Origin: Psococerastis gibbosa
Lineage: Eukaryota > Arthropoda > Insecta > Psocodea > Psocidae
Assembly: GCA_963971405.1 (NCBI GenBank)
Contig: OZ020485.1
Location: forward strand, 16,678,001-16,742,000
DNA length: 64,000 nt
Direction: 5' to 3'
A program made the position numbers and the translations under genes. The notes under the pieces were generated by a model. That model was given only the letters and a program-made list of their open reading frames with translations, was not told where the DNA came from and ran no database searches. Every line of letters begins with the position of its first letter. The first letter of the stretch is position 1. This document shows, one piece after another, positions 2,617 through 56,000 of this stretch.

Positions 2617-5600
2617 GTAAGTTAAAAATACTATTTTAACATACATTATTTTACAGGTGGATCCCACCATTTTCAATCTTGGCTGCATATACCGTAAGTT
2701 ACTGTTAATTAACAAGATACCACTAAAATATTTCAGGCTTCTACAGCCTATCAATCATATCAATCAATTTTAAAATTAACCATCGTTTACGTGCTTTTGA
2801 ATTCGGAATAAAAAAGTATCGTCTAGATTTTAGACTAACTGTCAATATCGGAAGTTAATTGAGAATTACATAATTTAGTTTTGAGTTCCACGCCAGTAGA
2901 TGGTAGAAAATGATTGGCAGTCATAACGTGGAAATTTATTGTTATATTAGTAGCCGCGTTATCGTAGTAACTTCGAAGGAGTCAACATTTTAAATGTTTC
3001 GGTAAGAAATACTGCGCATTTCTATATAGGAGAGATGGGACATTCTTCCTGCAAAAAAAATATTACTTTTAAATGTCTTGTTGTTGTTGTTGTTTCTAAC
3101 GCCTGCTTTCAGCATTTCTGCTTTAAGCAACCCTGTCAGCCTGGCGGGGGGAGTGAGTCTGTTTGTTAACTTGAGGCACCCTAAGGGCAGGCTCTTTCAC
3201 CTCGGGGAAAAGGGGAGTTGACTAACAGGGTGGACCTCCTGATTATAGTGGATTCCGAACCACTTGGGGAACATGGTAAAGTCACACGATTAAATCGGAG
3301 GTGACCGGGACTCGACTTATACTGCCTAAGCGAGTTATCATATCCCACCAGGTTCCCCTGCCAACGCTGTGCACACTACCAAGTTGCCGCAGTTTGAAAC
3401 ATGCTCTGCTCTAATGGAATTAACATGGTAAGGCCGTTGGCCTTTTATATTTCTGGCCTCCCCTGCCATGTCTCCTATGACCAGCCAATGAAAAGACGTC
3501 GCAGATGAGCCAAGAAATTTTTAGCAGGATTGAATGTATCGCCTCTCCTATATAGAAGTCTAGATGACATTGGAATATGGCCGTGTCTAGTATTTCAAAG
3601 TCTAGTGGGCACGGCCTCAATCAATCAATCAATCAATCAAAAACGTGTATTGTAACAGAAATACACAACACCTATAGGGCCAGATGACCCATAACAGACT
3701 GTAAAAATAATCTTATATCACCACACACCCTGCCAAACTTATTAGGGGACAAGCATGGGCCGATCACGGCAACGTTAAGCTTTCTAAGCAAGACCGGAGT
3801 CATGCCCCACCTGTAGACCGTAGACAAAACCATTCTAAAACACCCATGACTTCCGCACACACACACACACACACCGACCGGCGCAAATACTCGAAAGAGT
3901 CCCGCGCCTTAAAAAAAAATAAATAAATAAATAATTTAAACACAAAATATTTAACTCTTGAAAAATACAACGAACATTAACTTACGTGCTTATAACAGGT
4001 CCACAGAAACAATGAAAAAATTCTTTAAGTCTAATCCACAATTTGAAACAACTCTTCTCGTCCCATCAGCCATTCTAATAGGTACAATATGTCATGGCGT
4101 CATTTCTAAAATGTCGACTGATAGTCGATAGATGAGTAATTAAATTTTCTCATTTACTTGTAAAGAGCCGGCTACTGTCGCTTTTCTGGGCATTTGGTGA
4201 ATTATAAACATTATTAATAAATAATGACTTGTTGCTATAACCATTTGTAAACTTTCGACTGATAGGTGGTTAATTTTTTATCAGCACCGTCTCTTTTCTT
4301 GTAAAAAGTCGGCTACCATCGTCCTTCTGGGCTTTTGGAGGACTAAAATCATGATAAATAATTAATGACTTGTTGTTGTATGACTGAACCAACCTAGCGG
4401 AGTCCGGGCTACATAACTCTCTCTTATGTAGGCTACACTCTACTTGGACCGCCTGCTTTACATGCCCTCTGAAGCATGCATGTGGGAATCGAGCCAGTAA
4501 CATTATGGGAGAAAGCCAGGGCCCTTACCACCACACAACTTGTACCGGCAAACAAACAAACAAACAAACAGCGGTCCAACTCTCTGTTTCATACAAATAA
4601 AGGCTCGTATAATCTTTCTAAGGCTCTCCGTTAGTCTCGCCAAACATATCTGGCTCCAAATTTTTTGTTTGCTAACTCCATGGCAAAGGCTGGCTTTAAG
4701 TCAACCTGGAATTCATATAAGCTAAGAATCAGACGCAAATTTTTCGGCTCATTCCACTATGTCTTTGTCACAAACACATTATTTTCTCGTTCTTCGTTCG
4801 CACTGAAACTTTCAATCATTACTAGTCCCCACGAATTGGGATGTTACTAGCTTTAATTGGTACCGGCCGCCATACCATGTTGAATCCAGCGGACCAGAGC
4901 AGGTTCAAAGCTGCAGATAATTTGGTCGTGTGAACAGTGCCGGTAGGGAAACATGGTAGGACTTGTCCTGGTCTGCTCCGAACTAATCGTGTGACTTCAC
5001 TGTGTTTCCCAAGTGGTTCGGAATCCACTATAATCAGGAGGTCCACTGTCCTATGGGCTGGCATAGGACAGTCAAGTCGGGGTCGCTCTATGGGCCCAAA
5101 TGAGGCCTAAGTCGTTATTAACCCGACGAACACTACTACTACTAACTTTAATTGGTCATTAGGAATAGGCTAATTAGTGAGGACAATAAAACGAAATTAG
5201 AGAAATTTATGTACGACTTCAATTACTTCGCCATTACTCGTAATTTCAGTTATATTTTCACATTTACTTTGTTGTAGCCTACTTCGCCGTAGTAAAAATA
5301 AAATAAATTAATTTTGCCAATTGCGTATTACTAAACATATTAATAATAATAATAATGTGGTGTGACCCGCCTACCCAAGATAACGGCAATCTGCTTCAAT
5401 GCACTCTATGCCCCTGCTCTTTATACAATCTTTTGGAGTGCACAGACAATCGCGTCAAGTTGGCACAACACTGGGCCCAAAAAATGTAATGAGTCTCTCC
5501 GTTGCCTCTCGTTATAGCCTAAAGGTGTGGGTGTCACCGTTTGCTTGAATTTCCCCCACACCTCAGGTCTTAAAATACATCTTTTTGCATTCATAGGCGT

Positions 5601-8600
5601 ATATTATAGGTACACGTCTGTAGATGCCAAAAACTGCCATGATTTTTTCTGAAGTGAGGGCGACAATTAACTGTCGCATGTCCTAGTTTTGAAGAGTAAG
5701 ATCATGTTCATGTTCTGATTATGTTCCCATGTTCGAATCCCACAATAATAGTAATAATAATGTCCTGAAGGACGTTTTTTCGAACCAAGGCCCTAATGGA
5801 TTTCGGACATTATTTTTATTTTATTTTATAATTTTGCTTTCCAATTCATACGTAGTATAAGGAAAGTATTGTGATGGTCGAAATTTTCGATTCCGAGATT
5901 TCAACGGATTTACACGTTTTCAGGTCCCATGAACCCAAAAAAGTGGTTTTTATGAAATGTCTGTCTGTCTGTCTGTTCATCGATTTTCGGGCAAACTATT
6001 CGGTCGATTTTGATTAAATTTCACAAGTAGGTTGACAAAAATCATACCTCAGGACTATTTTTATTTTATTTTGGGCCAATTAATTTGGGGGGGGGGGGGT
6101 TTATTTTCAAAAAACTCCAAAAAAACGTCTAAAAAAATTATTTCTCAAAAACGGCTCCAACGATTTCCTTTAAATTCACATATATTGTAGTCGTTATTAA
6201 TGTTGACAAAATGCGGGGGTCGCTTGCTCCTTGATAGTTTGCTTCTGGGGGTAAAAAAAAAATAAAAATAACTAAATTTTGATTGATGAAAAATGACTGA
6301 AAAATAATTTTTCTGCGAAACCTTTCTATCGATGAGTTTTCTACCTACAGGCATGTTTTAGGTGTTAAAGATTTTTTTTAATGATAGAAAATTCGCGCTC
6401 AAATGCATTGCGTCTCCTTCCATTATTGCTGTGTGGTAATGTGATGGTCTGACCTATCTAGAATTTATCTCACCTCCAGTGACGTCAGGTGGACACCCCC
6501 CCCCCCCCCGAGATATCGGAAATCTAACCATAGGAAAATTATTTACCATGAAATTACTCATTTTCTCTATCTACTAATGTTGATAAATTGGAAAGCATGT
6601 TCGAGTAAACTCGGACCGGTTCTTTTTATATTGTTTCCGTAAGAATTTTGAGCCATTTGCAAATTGGTACACGTCCTCAATAATGTAATAGACAAGCTTA
6701 CCATTGGCGCAGTGTAACAGGAGGAAGTATGACTTAACCAAGTACAAATACGAGTTTTCGAATCCCACAAGTCTCGTTATATTTTCGGGTCATGGCTCGC
6801 AGGGCAGGGAGAGAAAGAGGGTTTCAAAGCCTTACATGTGACTAGCTCACCTACGTTGGTTTAATAATACTTATTTATTTACATAAACTATATGTATTAT
6901 TTTGAAAAAAGAACTTATTTTATTGGAACGAAGTGCATTAAAGTCAACATTAATCGAAATATTTTTGTAAGACTTTTCCGGACTAAAAATTTATTGAAAT
7001 TAAACTCAAGTATGCTACAGTTGGTACAGTGTACTTTAAAATAGGTAGCTGGCAGCGCTATCAATTTAATAATTTGCATATTTTATGGAATATCTGAGAA
7101 AGATGTATAAGAAAAGGTATCCAGCTATTTAAGTATGCGAAAAGTTAATTATGGTGGCTTCAAAGCTCATTGAAAATTTACCTTATTCTGCTAAAAGGCA
7201 CACCGGCCGTTGTAAGCACGATTCACATCTGTCTTCTAAAAGGATGAGAAAGGCAAAAGAATATTTTTTATTTTATTTTTTTTTTTAAAGTAATTCCAGG
7301 TAGGCTTTTATTCCTCAATTCTTCTTTGGAATTTTTACTGGTAGAACATAAAATTTGAAGGCAGAATCGGGCACCCCCACCGTCCATTTTTTTAATAAAA
7401 TTCAATTTCTCATATAATATCTATTGTAGAGCGATAAATAAGTTTTTTTTACTATTTTATTACTATTTATTATTTATTAATCAAGAAAAACGCAATACAA
7501 TTCATAGATGTCCAAGGGCCACACTAAGTGCACCCTGTGAAGGGGACTTGCGTCGTGGAGTAATGTTCCTTTACATTTTGATGCATAGTACGCCTATGTA
7601 GTGGTCACTGGCACAAATTTTTGGTTACAGTTTTGGAACTCCTTTGACCTGACACCCCGAGTGGCAGTTATTTTATTACAAATCAGGTTGAGCGGTGTTA
7701 GTGACGGCCACATAATGCGCATCAAAATGTAGAGGAACCTTTCTTCTATTTTATGACACCTCATTTATGGCTCTACTATCGATCTATCCTGTTAAATTTG
7801 ACACCCGTAAGGTTTCTCATAAAAAATGTTCTTCCGATCGGTGTTACTGACATAATACACATAATTACGCATTTGTAACATTATGAACAGTATATTATGT
7901 ATATGAACTTCTTCTACTTTATCACATTTATAACTCTACGATTGATGTTTCTTGCGATGTATTATTTATCCATCCTTTGGACGCGGCCAGTTGTCAGCAT
8001 TCCAAAATTAATAAGGAAACCATGCCAATAATGTCCGAAAACCCAATGAATGGGGTCGTTGGCAGGGCAATGCTCAATGCAAACAGAACTGCGTCCATAA
8101 AAACCCTTAAAATAATAACAGTCCTTGCGTATTGCCCTCCCCCCGCCCCCTTGCGCCATTCCTGTCTACTGTCCTGGCTGACCTTGCCGCACGTAACAGG
8201 TTTCAATTTTATCGCGCGTGCGTAAAAACTTGGAAGAGAGGCTTTCAAATAATTATGGTGCTTGATTAGGAGTTCTTTGATGTTGCCAAAGCTCCCGAAT
8301 AAATGATCATTTATATTAATTAGTATATGACTCATCCATTATTACTGCCCCTTTTATCAATATTAATGACTTTCTGGGATTGAGCATTTTCTCATCTTCA
8401 GAGTTCAAGTTGGTCATTTGAAATTGGAAATTTATTTATAAGCGGTTATTGTACTGAGAAGGTGCGCGTTGGTCCCAAAGAAATAGAACCGGTATGAGAG
8501 AACTCGTACTTGCTTCCCCATTTTTTAATTAGTACTATACCCAACCACCGTAGGATTACATTTGTTACCCTCATAAAAATGAAATAAACTCGGTGTTCCG

Positions 8601-11600
8601 CTTACATAAGTTTTCGAATAAAACCGTCTTACAAATGTCGTAAAGTAAGTAAGTAAATATATAATTGAACAATCAATAAAAATCGAAGCGTGAATCCCCA
8701 GCACTAAGTACAAAAACGACTTGTCACCCTGGGATCAAAAGTTAAGTACTACCGTGGTCGGGTGGTATAGGTACCGAGTTAGATAATATGAGTATGTGTA
8801 CAAAATAGTCCCAGGGTTACATTTCGGTTGCCTCCAATTTTTTTACCCCAGAGCACTGAATTGATCAATAGGACGATTGCTTGGTCAAGAACGGACAGAC
8901 TAATACAATGCAACACAGTAACGATGGCAGAATATGTTATGTATTGGGGCATGAATTATCCATAATGTTTTTAAAAAATATTTTTTTTTATTCAAAACCA
9001 AAACTTTGCTTAGGTTAGCAACCTATTCGGTTTTGTTACTCTATTTAACACCTAAAATATGTCTGAAGTTAGAAAGAAACGTTAAGAAAAACTATCAGCA
9101 GAAAAATTATCGTTTAGTTTTTTTCATGGGAGCCTTTTTGATTTATTTGCCCCCATAATGCCACTATCAAGGGATAAGCGACCTATTAGGGTTTGATTAC
9201 AATAATAAGGACTACAAAATATGTGAATTTAATCAAAAATTAGTTAAAGCCTTTTTTGAAGAAATAAATTTTTAGCAGTTGTTTTAATTTTTGGAAGGTA
9301 CATCTTTATATTTATCTTATCTTAAAGTTATCTTTATTTTATCATTATCTTATCTTTATCTTATCTTATCTTTATTTTATCGCACCTTTATTTTTATCTT
9401 TAATCTATGGTAAGACCCTTCAAAATTGATCTAGCCAAAAAAAAAAAAAAATACTCGTGAGATATGACTTTTGTGATGCTATACATACCGAATTTTATCA
9501 GAGTTACCCACGAATCGTTGAACGGCAGACAGACCCGTCCGATAGACATTTCGTAAACACCACTTCTTTCCACCAGTCATATTCACCTGTCCAGACATAA
9601 AAATTATTCATGTGAGAGGCTGATGCCAAATGATTTGGAATCCACTGTAATCAGGAGGTCCTCTCATATGTAACATAGCAAGTTCTAACATGAAGTTCTG
9701 AAAGTTCCATAGTTGAACCCATGCCCAAGCAAAAAGAGATTGTGTTATTCATTAATTAAGAGTTCCTCGGCACCCTACTACTAACAAGGTAGATAAAGAA
9801 GAATGAGATAAGTCATTCTTGGCATACCATTATTGTACTAAGAAGGGTATACATATAATATTGGTGCTACTGCTGACGGCAGAGAAGTGATCGTAATTAG
9901 TTTCCCCAACGTCTCCTGGTGTCTCTTTTTAAAAGAAGTTGCAGAAAGAAAGTAAATTAGAAAAAGATTTGAAAAGGGGACTCGAGCAATTTACTTAGTT
10001 GAGAGCTTTCTTGACTCTTCCGCCGTGGAGTTATTAAGCAACTGGATTAAGACCTCGAGCAATACCTCAGATACGATACTTGACAATTTGGCGTTTTCTA
10101 TTTATCTTTCGTTATTACTATTTGTAATTACATAAAATTACTAGTTGACCTAGCCAAATTCACAACAGTAAAATTAGGGTAGTTTCCACCAGTAGCGTAG
10201 CGTAGCGGAGCAACTGCCACCTACCCCCCCCCCCCCCAACGACACCCCTGCACAAACATTGTAATGTTAATTTCTGGAAAATACGATATTCTAAAATTAT
10301 GCACAATAATATATATTTTATACGATGCATATATACGTAAGTTTTCCCCTACTAGCTGCAGTTCAAGATTAGGTTGTTATTATAGGGTTGTATGGGCCCA
10401 GGCTCGGTGATAAAATTCCATTTATGAAGAGTCTCGAGCCTCTACCTTCCATTACATAGTCCAGGTCCCTACCCACTAGACCACGTGGGTGCGGGCTGCA
10501 GAATACTTCGTATATATAAAAATTTTGAGCGAGGCCGGCTTTATTAACTCAGGGAACTGTACAGGCGTATAGGCAAAAATTAAAAAAAAAACTCAACGCA
10601 AATTGATTGGTGTCAACATTGGTTCATAACGGATGTTTTTTCAAAATTGAAACCGTAGCGCTTAACGACCCCCTATGACCCTTTTCAAAATCGAAATCGC
10701 TCCAGCAATTCAACAACCTTTCAGTTCATTGATTGAGATTTCTGAACCAATTCATATGGGAATTATTCGCATATTTTCGGAGATGTGAAATGCCCGTGGT
10801 TTCGAATATTGGTTTCCCACCTCTTTGAGTTTGAAATTTTTCAGAGGTCATAAAATAAAAATAAAATAATTAGTTTAGCAGCCAATTAAGTGGAATGTTT
10901 CTAAATTTTTCAAATACGACATCATCATGCAGTGAGAGCATGTTAATTAATTTCTCGGTCCAGAGCCCTTATACGGACCTAAATGCTTCTTTTTCTTCTT
11001 TAAATTCCTCTTCTGTCGCAGCTGACCATGAGAATTTGGACCTTGGAGACTGCTGCTCTGAAAAGGGAAGTCATGCTCTTGCCAAACCACTGCCTCAGGT
11101 TTTTCAACCAGGATGTTCTTCTTCTTCCAGGAGTCCTCTGTTCTACTATCTTCCCTTGGATTATTACATGCAAAAGGGGATATTTTTCGTTCCTCAGCAC
11201 AAGTATCTTAGTTTCCGTTTCTTAGCCATCAGTAACAACTCGGCTTCTGTATCCATTCACCTCAGAACCTCAACATTAGGGACACCATCTCTTCAGGATA
11301 CGCGCAGCATTTTTCACTGTAAGAACAAAAAAAAATCGTCTGTATTGCTTCAGCCATTTGATGAGGAACGAAACGTATCGCATTCTGCATGTAATTATCC
11401 AAGGGGAGAGATAGAAGGACTGAGTGCTCTCGACAGAAGAAGAACATCCTGGTTGAAAGAGACAAAACATGCGCCTTACTCATCAAAGTAACGCATAAAC
11501 TGTAATAACAAACTACCATTGACAAGATTAAATCCATTGGCCATTGCGTGGTAGTAAATTCAAATTACTAAACTAAGCTAAACAAAACTAACCCTCAGAG

Positions 11601-49986: not shown

Positions 49987-50089
49987 ATGGGAAGGAAGGC
50001 TCGTTATAGTGATCCCGACCGGCCAAAACCGGGACCTGGACGAAAGACTAAGAAGCAAAAAGACCCGGTGTTTCCTAAGCATTTATTTG
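49987..50089 (+). CDS. Nop2: Nop2 exon 1
   Basis: It encodes MGRKARYSDPDRPKPGPGRK and a short basic continuation to HLF. The donor is GTAAG at 50090, phase 1. An A at position -3 supports this ATG. Confidence 0.9.
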
Positions 50090-53000
50090 GTAAGAATTTC
50101 TACGTATCACAACTTGTAAGTTGTAATGTAATGTGTTTTGCTAGTAGATATCCGGTATCAACAAAGTAACGGTTTTTCTTTGGCTACCGAACTAGCTGTA
50201 ATTTTATTGTGGGTAACTAAAGTAAACCTTTAATAAGGGTCTGTCTGATTGCATTATAATTGCACAATAATTTGTGTATGATAAAAAAGCCAAATTACAA
50301 TGAGACTGGAAGAGGTTAATCCTTATTTGAAGTAGCCAAACATTCGAAATTTGTTTTATCACTTAAATACGATCCAAGTGACATGGCCAATGTCCTGAAA
50401 ACGGCACCAAGCGACAGTAGCAAAATTGTAGTTGCAGTTTGTTAGTAGAAGGCACGTGTGTCAATGATGTCATGCATTATGGCATAGAAAAATTGTGATA
50501 ACTCAAAATAATGATTTAGGTGGTTAACCCGGTTCGTTATGTGGGATCGGTTATTAGTTTGTACTAAAGTTTATTTATTTTAACTTGGTGCATGGAAAAT
50601 TATTATGGGTGTAGTGGCCGTACAATTGTTTTTGTTTTAATGTAAGTTTATTTGCTTTCTGATATTACCGCAGAATACGTACACCAACTATAAAAGTGGC
50701 GGATAAGTGCTATGTTCTGCTGCGGCTTACTAATGTTATCATTTAATGGGTGAGGATCAATCTAGAACACCCATAAAACACGGTCTGAGCCGTCTGTCGA
50801 ATGTTATTGTGATTGCTTTGTTTATCATTGTTTGTTGTTGCTTTGAGTTGTGAGAAAAATACTAATGACATTTTGAAATTTAAAAACAAATTATTTCACA
50901 TGGCGACCGTGACAGATGTATCTGAGACCGAAGAGACCGGTTACTCAAAATCCGAGATAATTTTGAAACATCTCCGAGCTCAGTGTCGGGTGATGAGAGG
51001 TTTGTTGACAAAAGCTTGCAAAGTCAAGCCAGTTTCAAAGGCAACAGTTGCTAAAGCGAAAAATAAGGCCGATCGTTTATTAGAACTGGAGAAGAAGCTG
51101 CAAGATGTAATTCTTGAAATGAATGATTTTGAATTGCTTGAGGAAGGAATGGAGAGAGCTGAAGAATATCTAGACCTATGTACCGACTGTGCTAATTCAT
51201 TGGGATCTGATGAAGATTACGAGTCCGTAGCTGGGAGTGCCATTGCTAGTGGAAGTCGACAAAAGATAAGTGTTAAATTACCACAATTAAATTTGGCTGA
51301 GTTTGATGGCAATCCTATAAATTGGATTAATTTTTGGTCATTATTTGAAATAATTGATTCAGACGAGAACTTGAGTGACGGCCAAAAACTTCAATATTTG
51401 AGACAAAGTGTGACTGATGTGGCTAAGACAGGTGTTTATTCTTTTCCACCGTCACCTGCTAATTATCGTAAAGTTATTGAGCATTTAAAGCAAAGGTTTG
51501 GTAGGAAAACACTTCTTGTTAATATTTATGTGCGTGGGCACATAACCTTAACAAAAAACTATCGAGATTTGGCTAATTTGTATGACAATATTGAGACAAG
51601 ACTACGAGCCCTTGAAACACTAGGACTAAAGAGTGATGAGTTCGCGGCCATAATGTGACCGTTAGTAGAGTCCGCTTTGCCAAACGAGACTTTAAGATCG
51701 TTTGAAAGAAAACGGTACTTGGTTACTAGAGACGGAGCTGAAGAGGATGATTGCACGTACGAGGAGCAGCTTAAAGATCTCTTACGTTTTGTTCGGGGGA
51801 AGTAGAATCAGAGCAAAGAGTCTTGATTGCCGCTAAGGCTAAGGGAGTAAAGGAACATGAGAACATTACAGCAGACAGTGTTCCATCGGCTATGGCTCTA
51901 CTACAGACAAATTCAGTTCAAAATTGTGTTTTCTGCCACAAACAACACCCAAGTAAAGATTGTTACAAGGCTAAGAAGAGCATGAATTATGAGGAGAAAA
52001 TCAAAGCTCTACAAAACGGTGAGTGTTGCTTTCGTTGTTTAATACCGAGGCATCGAGTACAAAACTGTTCTCGTACTGATATTGTGTGCAAGATTTGTAA
52101 CAAGAGGCATTATGAAGTCTTATGTAACAGAGAACCTGAGAATTATATGCCTACTAAGGAGAAGAAGGCGAACAGTTACTGCAGTATCACACCAAGTTTA
52201 GTGTTACTGCAGACAGTCAAAGTGAGAAACGGAAAGAGTCTTGTTATCCGTGGAGTTTTGGATACTGGATCTGACAGATCATACATCAGCAAAGAGATTG
52301 CTAAGAAAATACACGCCAATACCTGTGGCTAGGAAAAGATAACCCATGGTGTGTTCGGTGGGAAAGAAACCAAAGCTACTGATCACGCCAAATTTCTAGT
52401 GTTGACCATAAATACAAAAATTCATTTTGTTTATTGGACCAGGATAAGATTTGCTGTTCCATTCCTAAACTGACTAATCTGGAGCTACAGAAAACTTTGG
52501 GTGCCAAAGGAATCAAGCTGAGTGATGCATTACCAGGTTCTGACGAGATTCATATTTTATTTGGAATGGACCACATACCTAAGATTACGACATGCGAGGA
52601 AGTAAAAATTAACAACGACTTAGTTGCTGAACTTACGTGTTTTGGTTGGACGTTAATGGGAGTGGTTGAGCAAAATAAGAGTGCAACAAACATTGCGTCT
52701 ACATTGTTAAATACTACTTGGAGCAATGAGAAGCCGAAGACGTTGGCTGATTTATGGACACTTGACACACTAGGCACCAAAGAATCTATCGATCAACCTG
52801 TAAATCCCAATGAACGTGTAGAAAAGTTCTTTAAAGACACAGTCCGCATCAATGAAGAAGGGAGGTAAGAAGTACGGCTACCTTTCAAAGAGGGCTGTCC
52901 ACCATTAGAGCAAGACGTAAACATTATGAGCCAACATCTAAAGCAAGTCACACAGACGTTGACAAAGAAGAAAGTACGAGAGCAGTATGATACAGTAAAG

Positions 53001-56000
53001 GGACGAGCCAGAGCGGGAAGCCGCACTACTCAGGACCAGATGGGAGAAACAGCTGGAGGAGGTGCAGAGAAGAAGTGAAGAACAAGTTCGCAGGCTGAAA
53101 AATGAGAACAGGAGAGATAGAGATAGACTGGCTATGGTGGAAGTGCAGTTCCAGGAGACTTTGGCCGAAGCTAGATGATCTATGGACAGGGAAAAAGAGA
53201 GAGAAAAGGCTGCTGTTGCTCGGGAGTTGGAGGGGAAGCTAGAAAATGCGCACAGACAACATCAGGTGAGTTGAAGGACCTCAAGGTGAGCATGGTACTC
53301 GAAAAAGAGATGTGGATGAATAATTACAAAAGAATACAAGCTAATAAGTTCCTGGAGAGAGAGACAGAGATCTTGAGCTCGCGATAGACCGGCTCGAGAC
53401 CGAAGGCCACAAGGCCAAATTAGAATTGCAAGAAGCTGCCGAAAATCGACTGAAGAGGCTGCGAGAAAAACTGGAGGGAGAGTTGAAAGATGCGGAAACG
53501 GAAGTGACGTCATTGAAAGCTAAATTATCTGATAGTAAACTGCTGTTGGTGGCCAAAGAGGAGTTTGAGGACAGGGTTGCCGATTTGGAGACTCACCTGA
53601 GACATAACAAGATTGAGTTGGCGCTGCTAAAGAAATTATGTGAGGAAATGTCAGCAGAAAGGGTAGAGCTGCGGAAGGTGGTAGGTGCTGAATCGGAAGC
53701 AGAACTGTCATCAGCGGCTGAGACCGTGGAAGTAGTGCACCATGAGATGGCAACGCTGAAGGCCAACTACGTTGTGCCACTTAAACGACGGGACGAAGCT
53801 GTGCGAGCCGCCAAAAAGGAGGCTGAGAAAGACCTGCTGGATTTTGGCAACAGAGTTCGACTTCGAATAAAGAAGAAGAGCCAACAACAACCATAGAGGA
53901 GGCCGGAAGCCTCATAAACTCACCTCCTGGCGTTTGGAGGTCGGGAGTGTCGAATGTTATTGTGATTGCTTTGTTTATCATTGTTTGTTGTTGCTTTGAG
54001 TTGTGAGAAAAATACAAATGCATTTTTGAAATTTTAAAACAAATTCTTTCACACCGTCCTTTAATTGTAAATAATTTGTTTCAGATGATGGAAAAGTAAA
54101 GAAAAAAGAAAGGCCAGACAGAAAAAATACTAAAAACGGCGGCCAACCTGTAGCTCCAATACAAAAACCCGGAAAATTGCTTATTGATGGAAAAAAGAAG
54201 ACTGATTCTAATAAGGGAAGTTCCACGAAATCTATTGTAAAGAATCAGAAGCAGGTTAAACAATTCACAAACCAAACGCAGCCAACTAAAAAAATTAAAA
54301 AATCTGAGGATGAAAATATTCAAACAAAGAAGAAGAAGCTGAAAGAGAAAGTTGTTGACTTTGATTCTGACGAGGAAAGTGATGTGGAAGAAACCAATTT
54401 GAATGATTTTGACAGTGACGATGATGATAGCGATGTCATTGATGATAAATATGATAATGTTGAGAGCGATGATGGTCATGACGAGGAAAGTGATAGCGGG
54501 GAAGGGGAAAATGACGATGAACCGAAACAAGTTCCATTGCCACCTCCAGAAGATTTACAAATTAACGTCGGACACTCCGATTTCTTCACTTTCCCAAGCC
54601 ATGAAGAATTAAATAACAACCTGAACTTATCTGAAATCCAACAACGCATTAAAGACGTAGTTTTAGTGCTATCCAACTTCAAACGCTTCCGTGACAACAA
54701 TCATGATCGTCAGGAATATTTGAATCTGCTAAAACTCGATTTATGTGCATATTACTCTTATAACGAGTTTCTCATGGAGAAATTTATGGATCTTTTCGAG
54801 TTGAGCGAACTGTTGGAGTTTCTGGAAGCTAGCGAAATGCCCAGACCTACTACGATTCGGACAAATAGCTTGAAGACGAGGCGGAGGGATTTGGCGCAGG
54901 CTTTGATCAATAGGGGTGTCAATTTGGATCCGTTGGGGAAGTGGACGAAGGTGGGACTGGTGGTCTTTTCGAGTCAGGTACCGATTGGAGCGACACCTGA
55001 GTACCTGGCCGGGTACTACATGATGCAGGGCGCGTCAAGTATGTTACCAGTTATGGCGCTTGCACCGCAGGAGAAGGAGCGTATACTGGACATGTGTGCT
55101 GCCCCCGGTGGCAAAACTTCACATATCGCTGCCGTTATGAAGAATACGGGTGTAATTTTTGCGAATGATGTAAATAAGGATCGGTGTAAGGCGGTTGTGG
55201 GAAATTTGCATCGACTGGGGATTAATAATACTGTGATTTGTTCCCACGATGGAAGGACGTTTCCAACTGTTATGAAGGTAACTATGTAAATTGTTGACAT
55301 AAATATCGAAGCTAGTTAATGATTGGTCTTTGCCAAATGCCAACGACCCATGGTTTTTTTATGACATGATTGATAATGTTTCCGTATGAATTTTTGACCA
55401 TTGGCAAACTTGTTTACGTCCTCGATATCAACCTTCCTCCGGCGACAAGTGATAATAGACAAGCTCACCATAGGCAATGACGTGACCAAGTGCGGTTCCA
55501 AGTGAGAGCTGGTTGGGATAAGTATCTGCCTTATTATTTGAAAGGAATGGACGTTGGTTTACTTGTAATGGCCCATTGAACCTTACCCTGCTAACGACCT
55601 TATGGACATTATTGATATTGTTTGGCGGTTGGTAAACTGGCTCACGCCCTCGATGTCTACCCACGCCGACTACAAGCGATAATGGACTAGCTGAGACATA
55701 CTCACTATTGACTTTGTAACAGGCGTTAGCTTGCCTTAACCAAGTTCGTGAACGAGTTAACTGCGGGCTTGTAGTTGAGCTCGATTCCTATTATAGCTTG
55801 AGGTTTCCTTTTGATTGCTCATTTCCTTTTCCGTTTTAACAATTTTGGAAAGTTCCTCCAATGCTGCAGCTGAAGAGGAGGTTCAATTTTTAAGAATTAA
55901 TTTGAAAATTCAATGTTTTACAGGGTTTTGACAGAGTGCTTCTTGACGCTCCATGCACCGGCACGGGTGTTATTTCCAAGGACCAATCTGTGAAGACCGG

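Follow-up and report, generated by a model that had tools for sequence, protein, structure and literature searches.

Background

In acutely transforming retroviruses a host coding sequence replaces pol and is joined in frame to Gag, leaving a defective virus that depends on a helper. Capture of host transcripts between the repeats of long terminal repeat (LTR) elements has reportedly been documented in animals as LTR-mediated retroposition by Tan et al. in Genome Res in 2016. Here we describe a decayed BEL/Pao-type element of the insect Psococerastis gibbosa in which sequence matching spliced exons of the host's own CEP131 gene stands where the enzymes of pol are expected. The element lies on the + strand at 50795-54053 (3,259 bp) of the analyzed stretch of 64,000 nucleotides (hereafter the window; C2:16678001-16742000 of a 409,210,807-base assembly in 68 contigs).

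LTR-mediated retroposition in animals is described in PMC5408686 and PMC9674220 and mentioned in PMC8232201; according to the first of these, LTR elements may package cellular messenger RNA (mRNA) by chance and microsimilarities permit template switching (PMC5408686). The maize element Bs1, as reviewed in PMC13317346 and PMC5408686, is an LTR element with pieces of host genes and a hybrid coding sequence. Pxyfem of Plutella xylostella (PMC9674220) combines a partial spliced host complementary DNA (cDNA) with the gag of an LTR element at a 4-nucleotide (nt) switch point and is multicopy; it forms tandem W-linked arrays whose LTRs its authors left unidentified, and it yields small RNAs that dampen Masc in the moth.

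Our locus resembles animal LTR-mediated retroposition in having host mRNA between LTRs, with a proposed template switch on a short shared sequence at the 3' junction, and differs from the process as described there in that the donor, a sibling bearing reverse transcriptase (RT) and the junctions are found in one assembly, that the host part is in frame with gag-protease-pol, and that the hybrid is present at eight or more loci. It shares with Bs1 the host-gene pieces within an LTR element and the hybrid coding sequence, but is an animal BEL/Pao element with one donor, where Bs1 is from a plant and has three. Like Pxyfem, it joins a partial spliced cDNA to gag sequence, has 4 nt in common between the partners at a switch point and is multicopy, whereas its copies are dispersed and both LTRs are seen in five of nine loci. 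Like the acutely transforming retroviruses, it has host sequence in the place of pol, fused in frame to Gag; unlike them it is a retrotransposon, and no envelope gene is listed among the frames and Pfam matches of the window element. It is of the same kind as the known LTR-mediated captures, and what is unusual is that it is in frame, amplified and fully traceable. In our searches of the open-licence literature we found no printed case of a BEL/Pao element capturing a cellular gene, and the papers found there for CEP131 and retrotransposons are, by title and start of abstract, unrelated.

The cargo and its donor gene

We propose that the window element belongs to a non-autonomous BEL/Pao family born by template switching between element RNA and spliced CEP131 mRNA, and give this reading a probability of about 0.94. 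The original prediction, made from the window alone, had likewise supposed that a host mRNA was captured by template switching to give a non-autonomous element; the spliced exons, the junctions and the RT-bearing siblings set out below support it, and we found no evidence contradicting spliced-mRNA capture in this analysis.

A genome search with the cargo returned at least 15 rows: nine cargo inserts, the window included, four exons on contig C19 and two rows confined to the element's native 3' end. The four exon matches span C19:4684853-4688779 and belong to one gene, the intron-containing CEP131 of this genome (from C19:4684326), so that the predicted parent locus is indeed present, its exons in spliced form being what the cargo matches. 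A search of the genome with human CEP131 gave at least seven matches, two at the C19 gene and five at cargo copies. The cargo-matching exons lie in a 9.9-kb stretch of C19 (L009), at 3327-3544, 3856-4081 and 5445-5627 (exons a-c) and at 6821-7033, 7563-7780 and from 8728 (exons d-f); they are flanked by AG acceptors and GT donors, and the host reading frame stops about 44 codons into exon f, the last coding exon. A tblastn search with human CEP131 (1e-2) found no further exons upstream of L009 within 30 kb. All five introns between exons a and f are absent from the cargo, whose features in the window are as follows:

52990..52993, + strand: 5' junction, where the native pol linker gives way to exon a of CEP131
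52992..53862, + strand: captured CEP131 cargo, spliced exons a-e and the first 9 nt of exon f
53039..53040, + strand: exon a/b joint, 311-nt intron gone
53265..53266, + strand: exon b/c joint, 1363-nt intron gone
53413..53414, + strand: exon c/d joint, 1193-nt intron gone
53635..53636, + strand: exon d/e joint, 529-nt intron gone
53853..53854, + strand: exon e/f joint, 947-nt intron gone
53859..53862, + strand: 3' junction on GACT, present both in exon f of CEP131 and in the native element

The window copy is 92-95% identical to host exons b, d and e and 80% to exon c, where it has a 34-nt deletion, and matches exon a in 23 of 23 nt; the five longer copies in the genome differ from the spliced host exons at 3.6-4.5% of aligned sites. 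These comparisons point firmly to a spliced host CEP131 mRNA as the source of the cargo. The G+C content is 0.40 across 52000-52990 as against 0.49 across the cargo. The intronless coding stretch had been put at about 890 bases; it is intronless, and its length is about 871 bases. It had also been thought to run to just before the polypurine tract, which is not the case: the host part ends at about 53862, and native element sequence resumes within 53859-53862. The cargo was likened to the conserved C-terminus of CEP131/AZI1 (Dilatory); the gene is right, but the cargo takes in only 9 nt of the last coding exon and hence is without the last ~40 residues.

At the protein level, a search with the cargo pieces against 5.8 billion proteins, of which the 8000 candidates sharing most words were scored, gave 21 matches at E<=10, all of them to CEP131 (best 3.1e-7), as the original prediction had expected; all 21 are primate proteins and hence uninformative on the host lineage. 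Two other searches were empty, that with the 182-residue cargo frame alone (0 matches at E<=10 among 742 candidates of similar length) and that with 100 residues of cargo (0 among 866 candidates), which we ascribe to the length filter and the short query. The main cargo piece scored 191 against human CEP131, 13 standard deviations (SD) above the mean of 500 shuffles preserving heptad make-up (77.3, SD 8.8). The middle piece stood 3.2 SD above its shuffles with human CEP131 and 4.7 SD with the gibbon protein, and the first piece at -0.2 and 4.5 SD respectively. Joined with X, the three pieces are collinear on human CEP131 at about 750-1017, whereas the first piece alone finds its best placement there out of order. 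Given the weakness of the first and middle pieces at this level, the donor gene is the decisive evidence. Against Pfam and PDB the cargo gave weak coiled-coil matches only, with KIF21A and GAS domains below the cut-off; for human CEP131 itself Pfam lists no domain. Scans of viral contigs with cargo, gag and protease-linker, and of prokaryote contigs with gag, returned no relative.

Relatives with reverse transcriptase

Coiled coils draw spurious matches, as with the below-cut-off domains above, and two of three protein searches were empty; the coil might therefore be not CEP131 but a long-standing BEL/Pao gene or a coiled coil that resembles it by chance. This is refuted by the CEP131 exons of the same genome (92-95% nucleotide identity to three of them, with a further two matched at lower identity or over a shorter stretch) and by relatives of the element that bear RT and lack the coil, and we consider its probability negligible. 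One relative (L033, C1:6030410) shares 93% identity with the element across ~500 bp of the protease and linker (window 52483-52990), and its linker continues into RT (RVT_1, 8.3e-9). A second (L034), at 73% identity, has RT and a Pao peptidase (Peptidase_A17, 4.3e-48). In none of the three relatives readable past the linker (L033, L034 and L035) does the coil follow it, and the two scanned have RT, which argues against an ancestral element gene, the alternative that the original prediction had named as its own refutation. A further relative (L018) has DUF5641 (8.1e-5) ahead of the same native 3' end; integrase-like sequence was recognized there by eye only, without a Pfam match. Pao-type pol (RT, Peptidase_A17, DUF5641) is thus seen in the relatives only, the window element having the cargo in its place. 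These relatives are candidate sources of trans-acting enzymes.

Junctions and reading frame

The same 5' junction region recurs in six of the six copies where it was found (window, L010, L011, L013, L016 and L026): the pol linker runs up to GAGCAGTATGA and is followed by TACAG and host sequence, with one base different just before it in L011 and several changes just after it in L026. In a search with a 241-bp chimeric query, bases 1-51 match the RT-bearing sibling at C1:6030858 and bases 53-238 the host gene, the other six of the eight rows being cargo copies. At the 3' junction the sequence is AGTTCGACTGAC in host exon f, GGGACTTCGGATAAAG in the native element (L017, L018) and AGTTCGACTTCGAATAAAG in the hybrid, so that the switch falls on a 4-base identity, GACT; this junction was read in seven loci (window, L010, L012, L013, L014, L015 and L016). 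Further copies hence share the junctions, as had been anticipated. The abrupt change first placed at about 53008 is real, although the junction is at about 52990-52993; its look near 53008 comes in part from a later ~164-nt deletion in the window copy.

The breakpoints lie about 6-8 nt into exon a and 9 nt into exon f. If an element had once been inside the CEP131 gene, a single chimeric transcript formed by read-through and splicing, with element sequence followed by the spliced exons and then by element or LTR sequence, could have been reverse transcribed, and it is suggestive that an exon start lies no more than about 10 nt from either breakpoint. Neither coincides with a splice site, however, for which reason splicing at the junctions was set aside; the 3' breakpoint is on the GACT common to the native element, and in L009 the pieces matching the element are exons only. 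We consider this route unlikely. A processed CEP131 pseudogene made by a long interspersed nuclear element (LINE), inserted into the element or recombined with it at the DNA level, would account for the intronless cargo, and LINE-type RNase H fragments are present in the window. Yet the cargo ends without poly(A), pol is replaced between the same two points in all copies showing them, and there is the 4-base identity at the 3' switch, all of which make this origin highly improbable; no stand-alone CEP131 retrocopy with the same ends was found among at least 15 cargo or at least seven CEP131 protein matches.

The linker frame continues into the CEP131 frame in L010, L011, L013 and L026. L010 and L013 have the junction peptide REQYDTVKGLEPEL, and L011 and L026 slight variants of it, the host sequence being EMTVKGLEPE. 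Open frames spanning the 5' junction range from 69 to 964 residues in the six copies examined; at the 3' end the frame departs from the native pol frame and meets a stop soon after. From this continuity at the 5' junction, the hybrid at its origin could have encoded a Gag-protease-CEP131 fusion.

In the template-switching origin that we favour, we infer that element RNA and spliced CEP131 mRNA would have been co-packaged and reverse transcribed together. Minus-strand synthesis from the 3' LTR would have jumped on GACT to CEP131 exon f, and RT would then have copied exons f to a before jumping back into the pol linker of the element. Such a double switch would remove RT, RNase H and integrase and place the C-terminal coiled coil of CEP131 in frame behind Gag-protease, while the LTRs, primer site, polypurine tract and gag-protease would be retained. 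As the hybrid lacks RT and integrase its spread would need enzymes in trans, and it may have been moved by the RT and integrase of autonomous siblings to at least eight loci.

Spread and decay of the hybrid

The cargo is found at nine loci, representing at least eight independent insertions and one segmental duplicate:

C2: 16.73 Mb (window), 14.46 Mb (L011) and 51.75 Mb (L012)
C15: 22.96 Mb (L010) and 29.54 Mb (L016)
C13:1.66 Mb: L013
C1:5.79 Mb: L026, start of cargo only
C14:36449272-36449958: L014, 687 bp
C14:36419540-36420226: L015, 687 bp

L014 and L015 are one insertion doubled by segmental duplication (98.7% identity over 2,776 columns); between their LTRs nothing is left but the first part of gag and the last part of the cargo, and they resemble a terminal-repeat element in miniature. 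We compared up to 1,200 bp on each side of all nine loci and found that only L014 and L015 share a flank as such, L010 and L012 having in common one 74-column repeat at different offsets; the notion that the nine loci are segmental duplicates of one insert was accordingly rejected. Both LTRs are seen in five of the nine loci (four of eight if L014/L015 is counted once), and outside the window the members of a pair differ at 4/109 positions in L010, 0/108 in L013, 3/113 in L014 and 4/113 in L015. Target repeats are ccgtc in the window, gcaca in L013 and tgctc in L014 and L015. Four copies (window, L010, L011 and L012) cover the position of a 9-nt in-frame insertion, and all four carry it. The recurring junctions, this insertion and the 21 sites, treated below, at which every covering copy differs from the host point to a single capture, after which the hybrid multiplied at separate genome sites.

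Several observations weigh against this reconstruction. Microhomology is shown at the 3' end only; at the 5' switch point clear identity extends over 0-1 nt, and ATGA occurs in both partners offset by two bases. Of the loci with cargo, four of nine (L011, L012, L016 and L026) are missing one or both whole LTRs, and the repeats flanking L010, aaagt/acagt, match at four of five bases. The cargo tree is near star-like, leaves the order of copies unresolved and places the host beside L013 with 0.81 support; two sites are alike in L013 and the host but different in the other four copies, and a second donor contribution to L013, or conversion, is conceivable.

Changes private to single copies comprise 51 nonsynonymous, 3 stop and 13 synonymous (expected fractions 0.67, 0.04 and 0.29), which shows no deficit of nonsynonymous changes and suggests that the copies decay without visible constraint. 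At 21 sites, leaving out those covered by fewer than 3 copies, every covering copy differs from the host: 11 of these differences are nonsynonymous and 10 synonymous, against an expected ratio of 71:29 (binomial 0.050), and this deficit of nonsynonymous changes hints at some constraint, though the set includes the host's own branch. The captured copy might have become a functional host gene or have been selected for its fusion protein, in keeping with the frame kept at the 5' junction and with the 11:10 ratio, itself partly of the host branch. We regard this as very unlikely, as the 54 nonsynonymous or stop changes against 13 synonymous show no deficit and the window copy is broken: gag and protease have frame changes, one stop precedes the cargo and another lies within it, and the cargo has suffered the ~164-nt deletion (most of exon a), the 34-nt deletion and a one-base gap.

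The window element and its surroundings

The remaining parts of the window element are:

50790..50794: 5' copy of the target-site duplication ccgtc, 5 bp
50795..50900, + strand: 5' LTR, 106 bp, TGT...ACA
50901..50914, + strand: putative primer binding site TGGCGACCGTGACA, abutting the 5' LTR
50899..52200, + strand: gag region; its ATG at 50899 overlaps the LTR end, and frame changes break this copy
51775..52332, + strand: Cys/His-rich knuckle region and aspartyl-protease-like region
52201..52991, + strand: remainder of protease and pre-reverse-transcriptase linker of pol
53859..53947, + strand: native 3' end of the element, a pol C-terminus remnant and then the purine-rich tract
53936-53947, + strand: purine-rich tract ggaggtcgggag, the polypurine tract
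53948..54053, + strand: 3' LTR, 106 bp
54054..54058: 3' copy of the target-site duplication ccgtc, 5 bp

The intact LTR pair and the 5-bp duplication CCGTC first reported were borne out in both coordinates and flanks. The two LTRs are identical at 100 of 106 positions ungapped, and a gapped alignment has 3 mismatches and 2 gap columns; the genome holds at least 23 whole or partial LTR matches, some without adjoining cargo. LTRs of the form TG...CA, a putative primer site, a polypurine tract and a short target duplication, all present, agree with BEL/Pao membership. We take TGGCGACCGTGACA to be a putative site for a transfer RNA primer. Gag followed by protease in the usual order had been proposed: the gag frame matches DUF1759 (1.3e-16, about 51302-51652), a domain associated with BEL/Pao-type gag, while the protease-like region reaches Asp_protease_2 only below Pfam's cut-off (E 0.0098). 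The Cys/His-rich motif in the gag-protease stretch is presumably a knuckle.

The element is inserted in sense orientation within an intron of a NOP2-like ribosomal RNA methyltransferase gene (Methyltr_RsmB-F, 2e-26), whose exons lie from about 49987 onward and at 54085-55289; the exon near 49987 is presumably the N-terminal one. The 3' LTR ends about 31 nt before the acceptor of the next exon, and the branch point might be affected. Among loci related to the element, L025 (C19:25539500-25549000) has three adjacent native 3' tails at 8819-9210, perhaps because a related element was rearranged in tandem, and L020 (C12:43425800-43435700) has two gag-start matches beside an LTR at 4733-4852, as if the gag start had been duplicated.

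Implications

The capture need not have been neutral. The fusion may have taken particles to the centrosome or centriolar satellites, aiding spread, or small RNAs from the dispersed copies, which are about 95-96% identical to the CEP131 exons, may dampen CEP131 in the germ line, an effect modelled on that of Pxyfem on Masc; we hold a role of this sort to be unlikely. The steps of such a capture are usually seen in pieces, and here one assembly contains the donor, an RT-bearing sibling, both switch points, the in-frame fusion, its multiplied descendants and a shortened derivative. A BEL/Pao element can thus do what the gag-fusion transducing retroviruses do, and the product can multiply. This makes it testable whether a centrosomal coil attached to Gag would alter the site of particle assembly, and whether dispersed copies would silence the parent gene.

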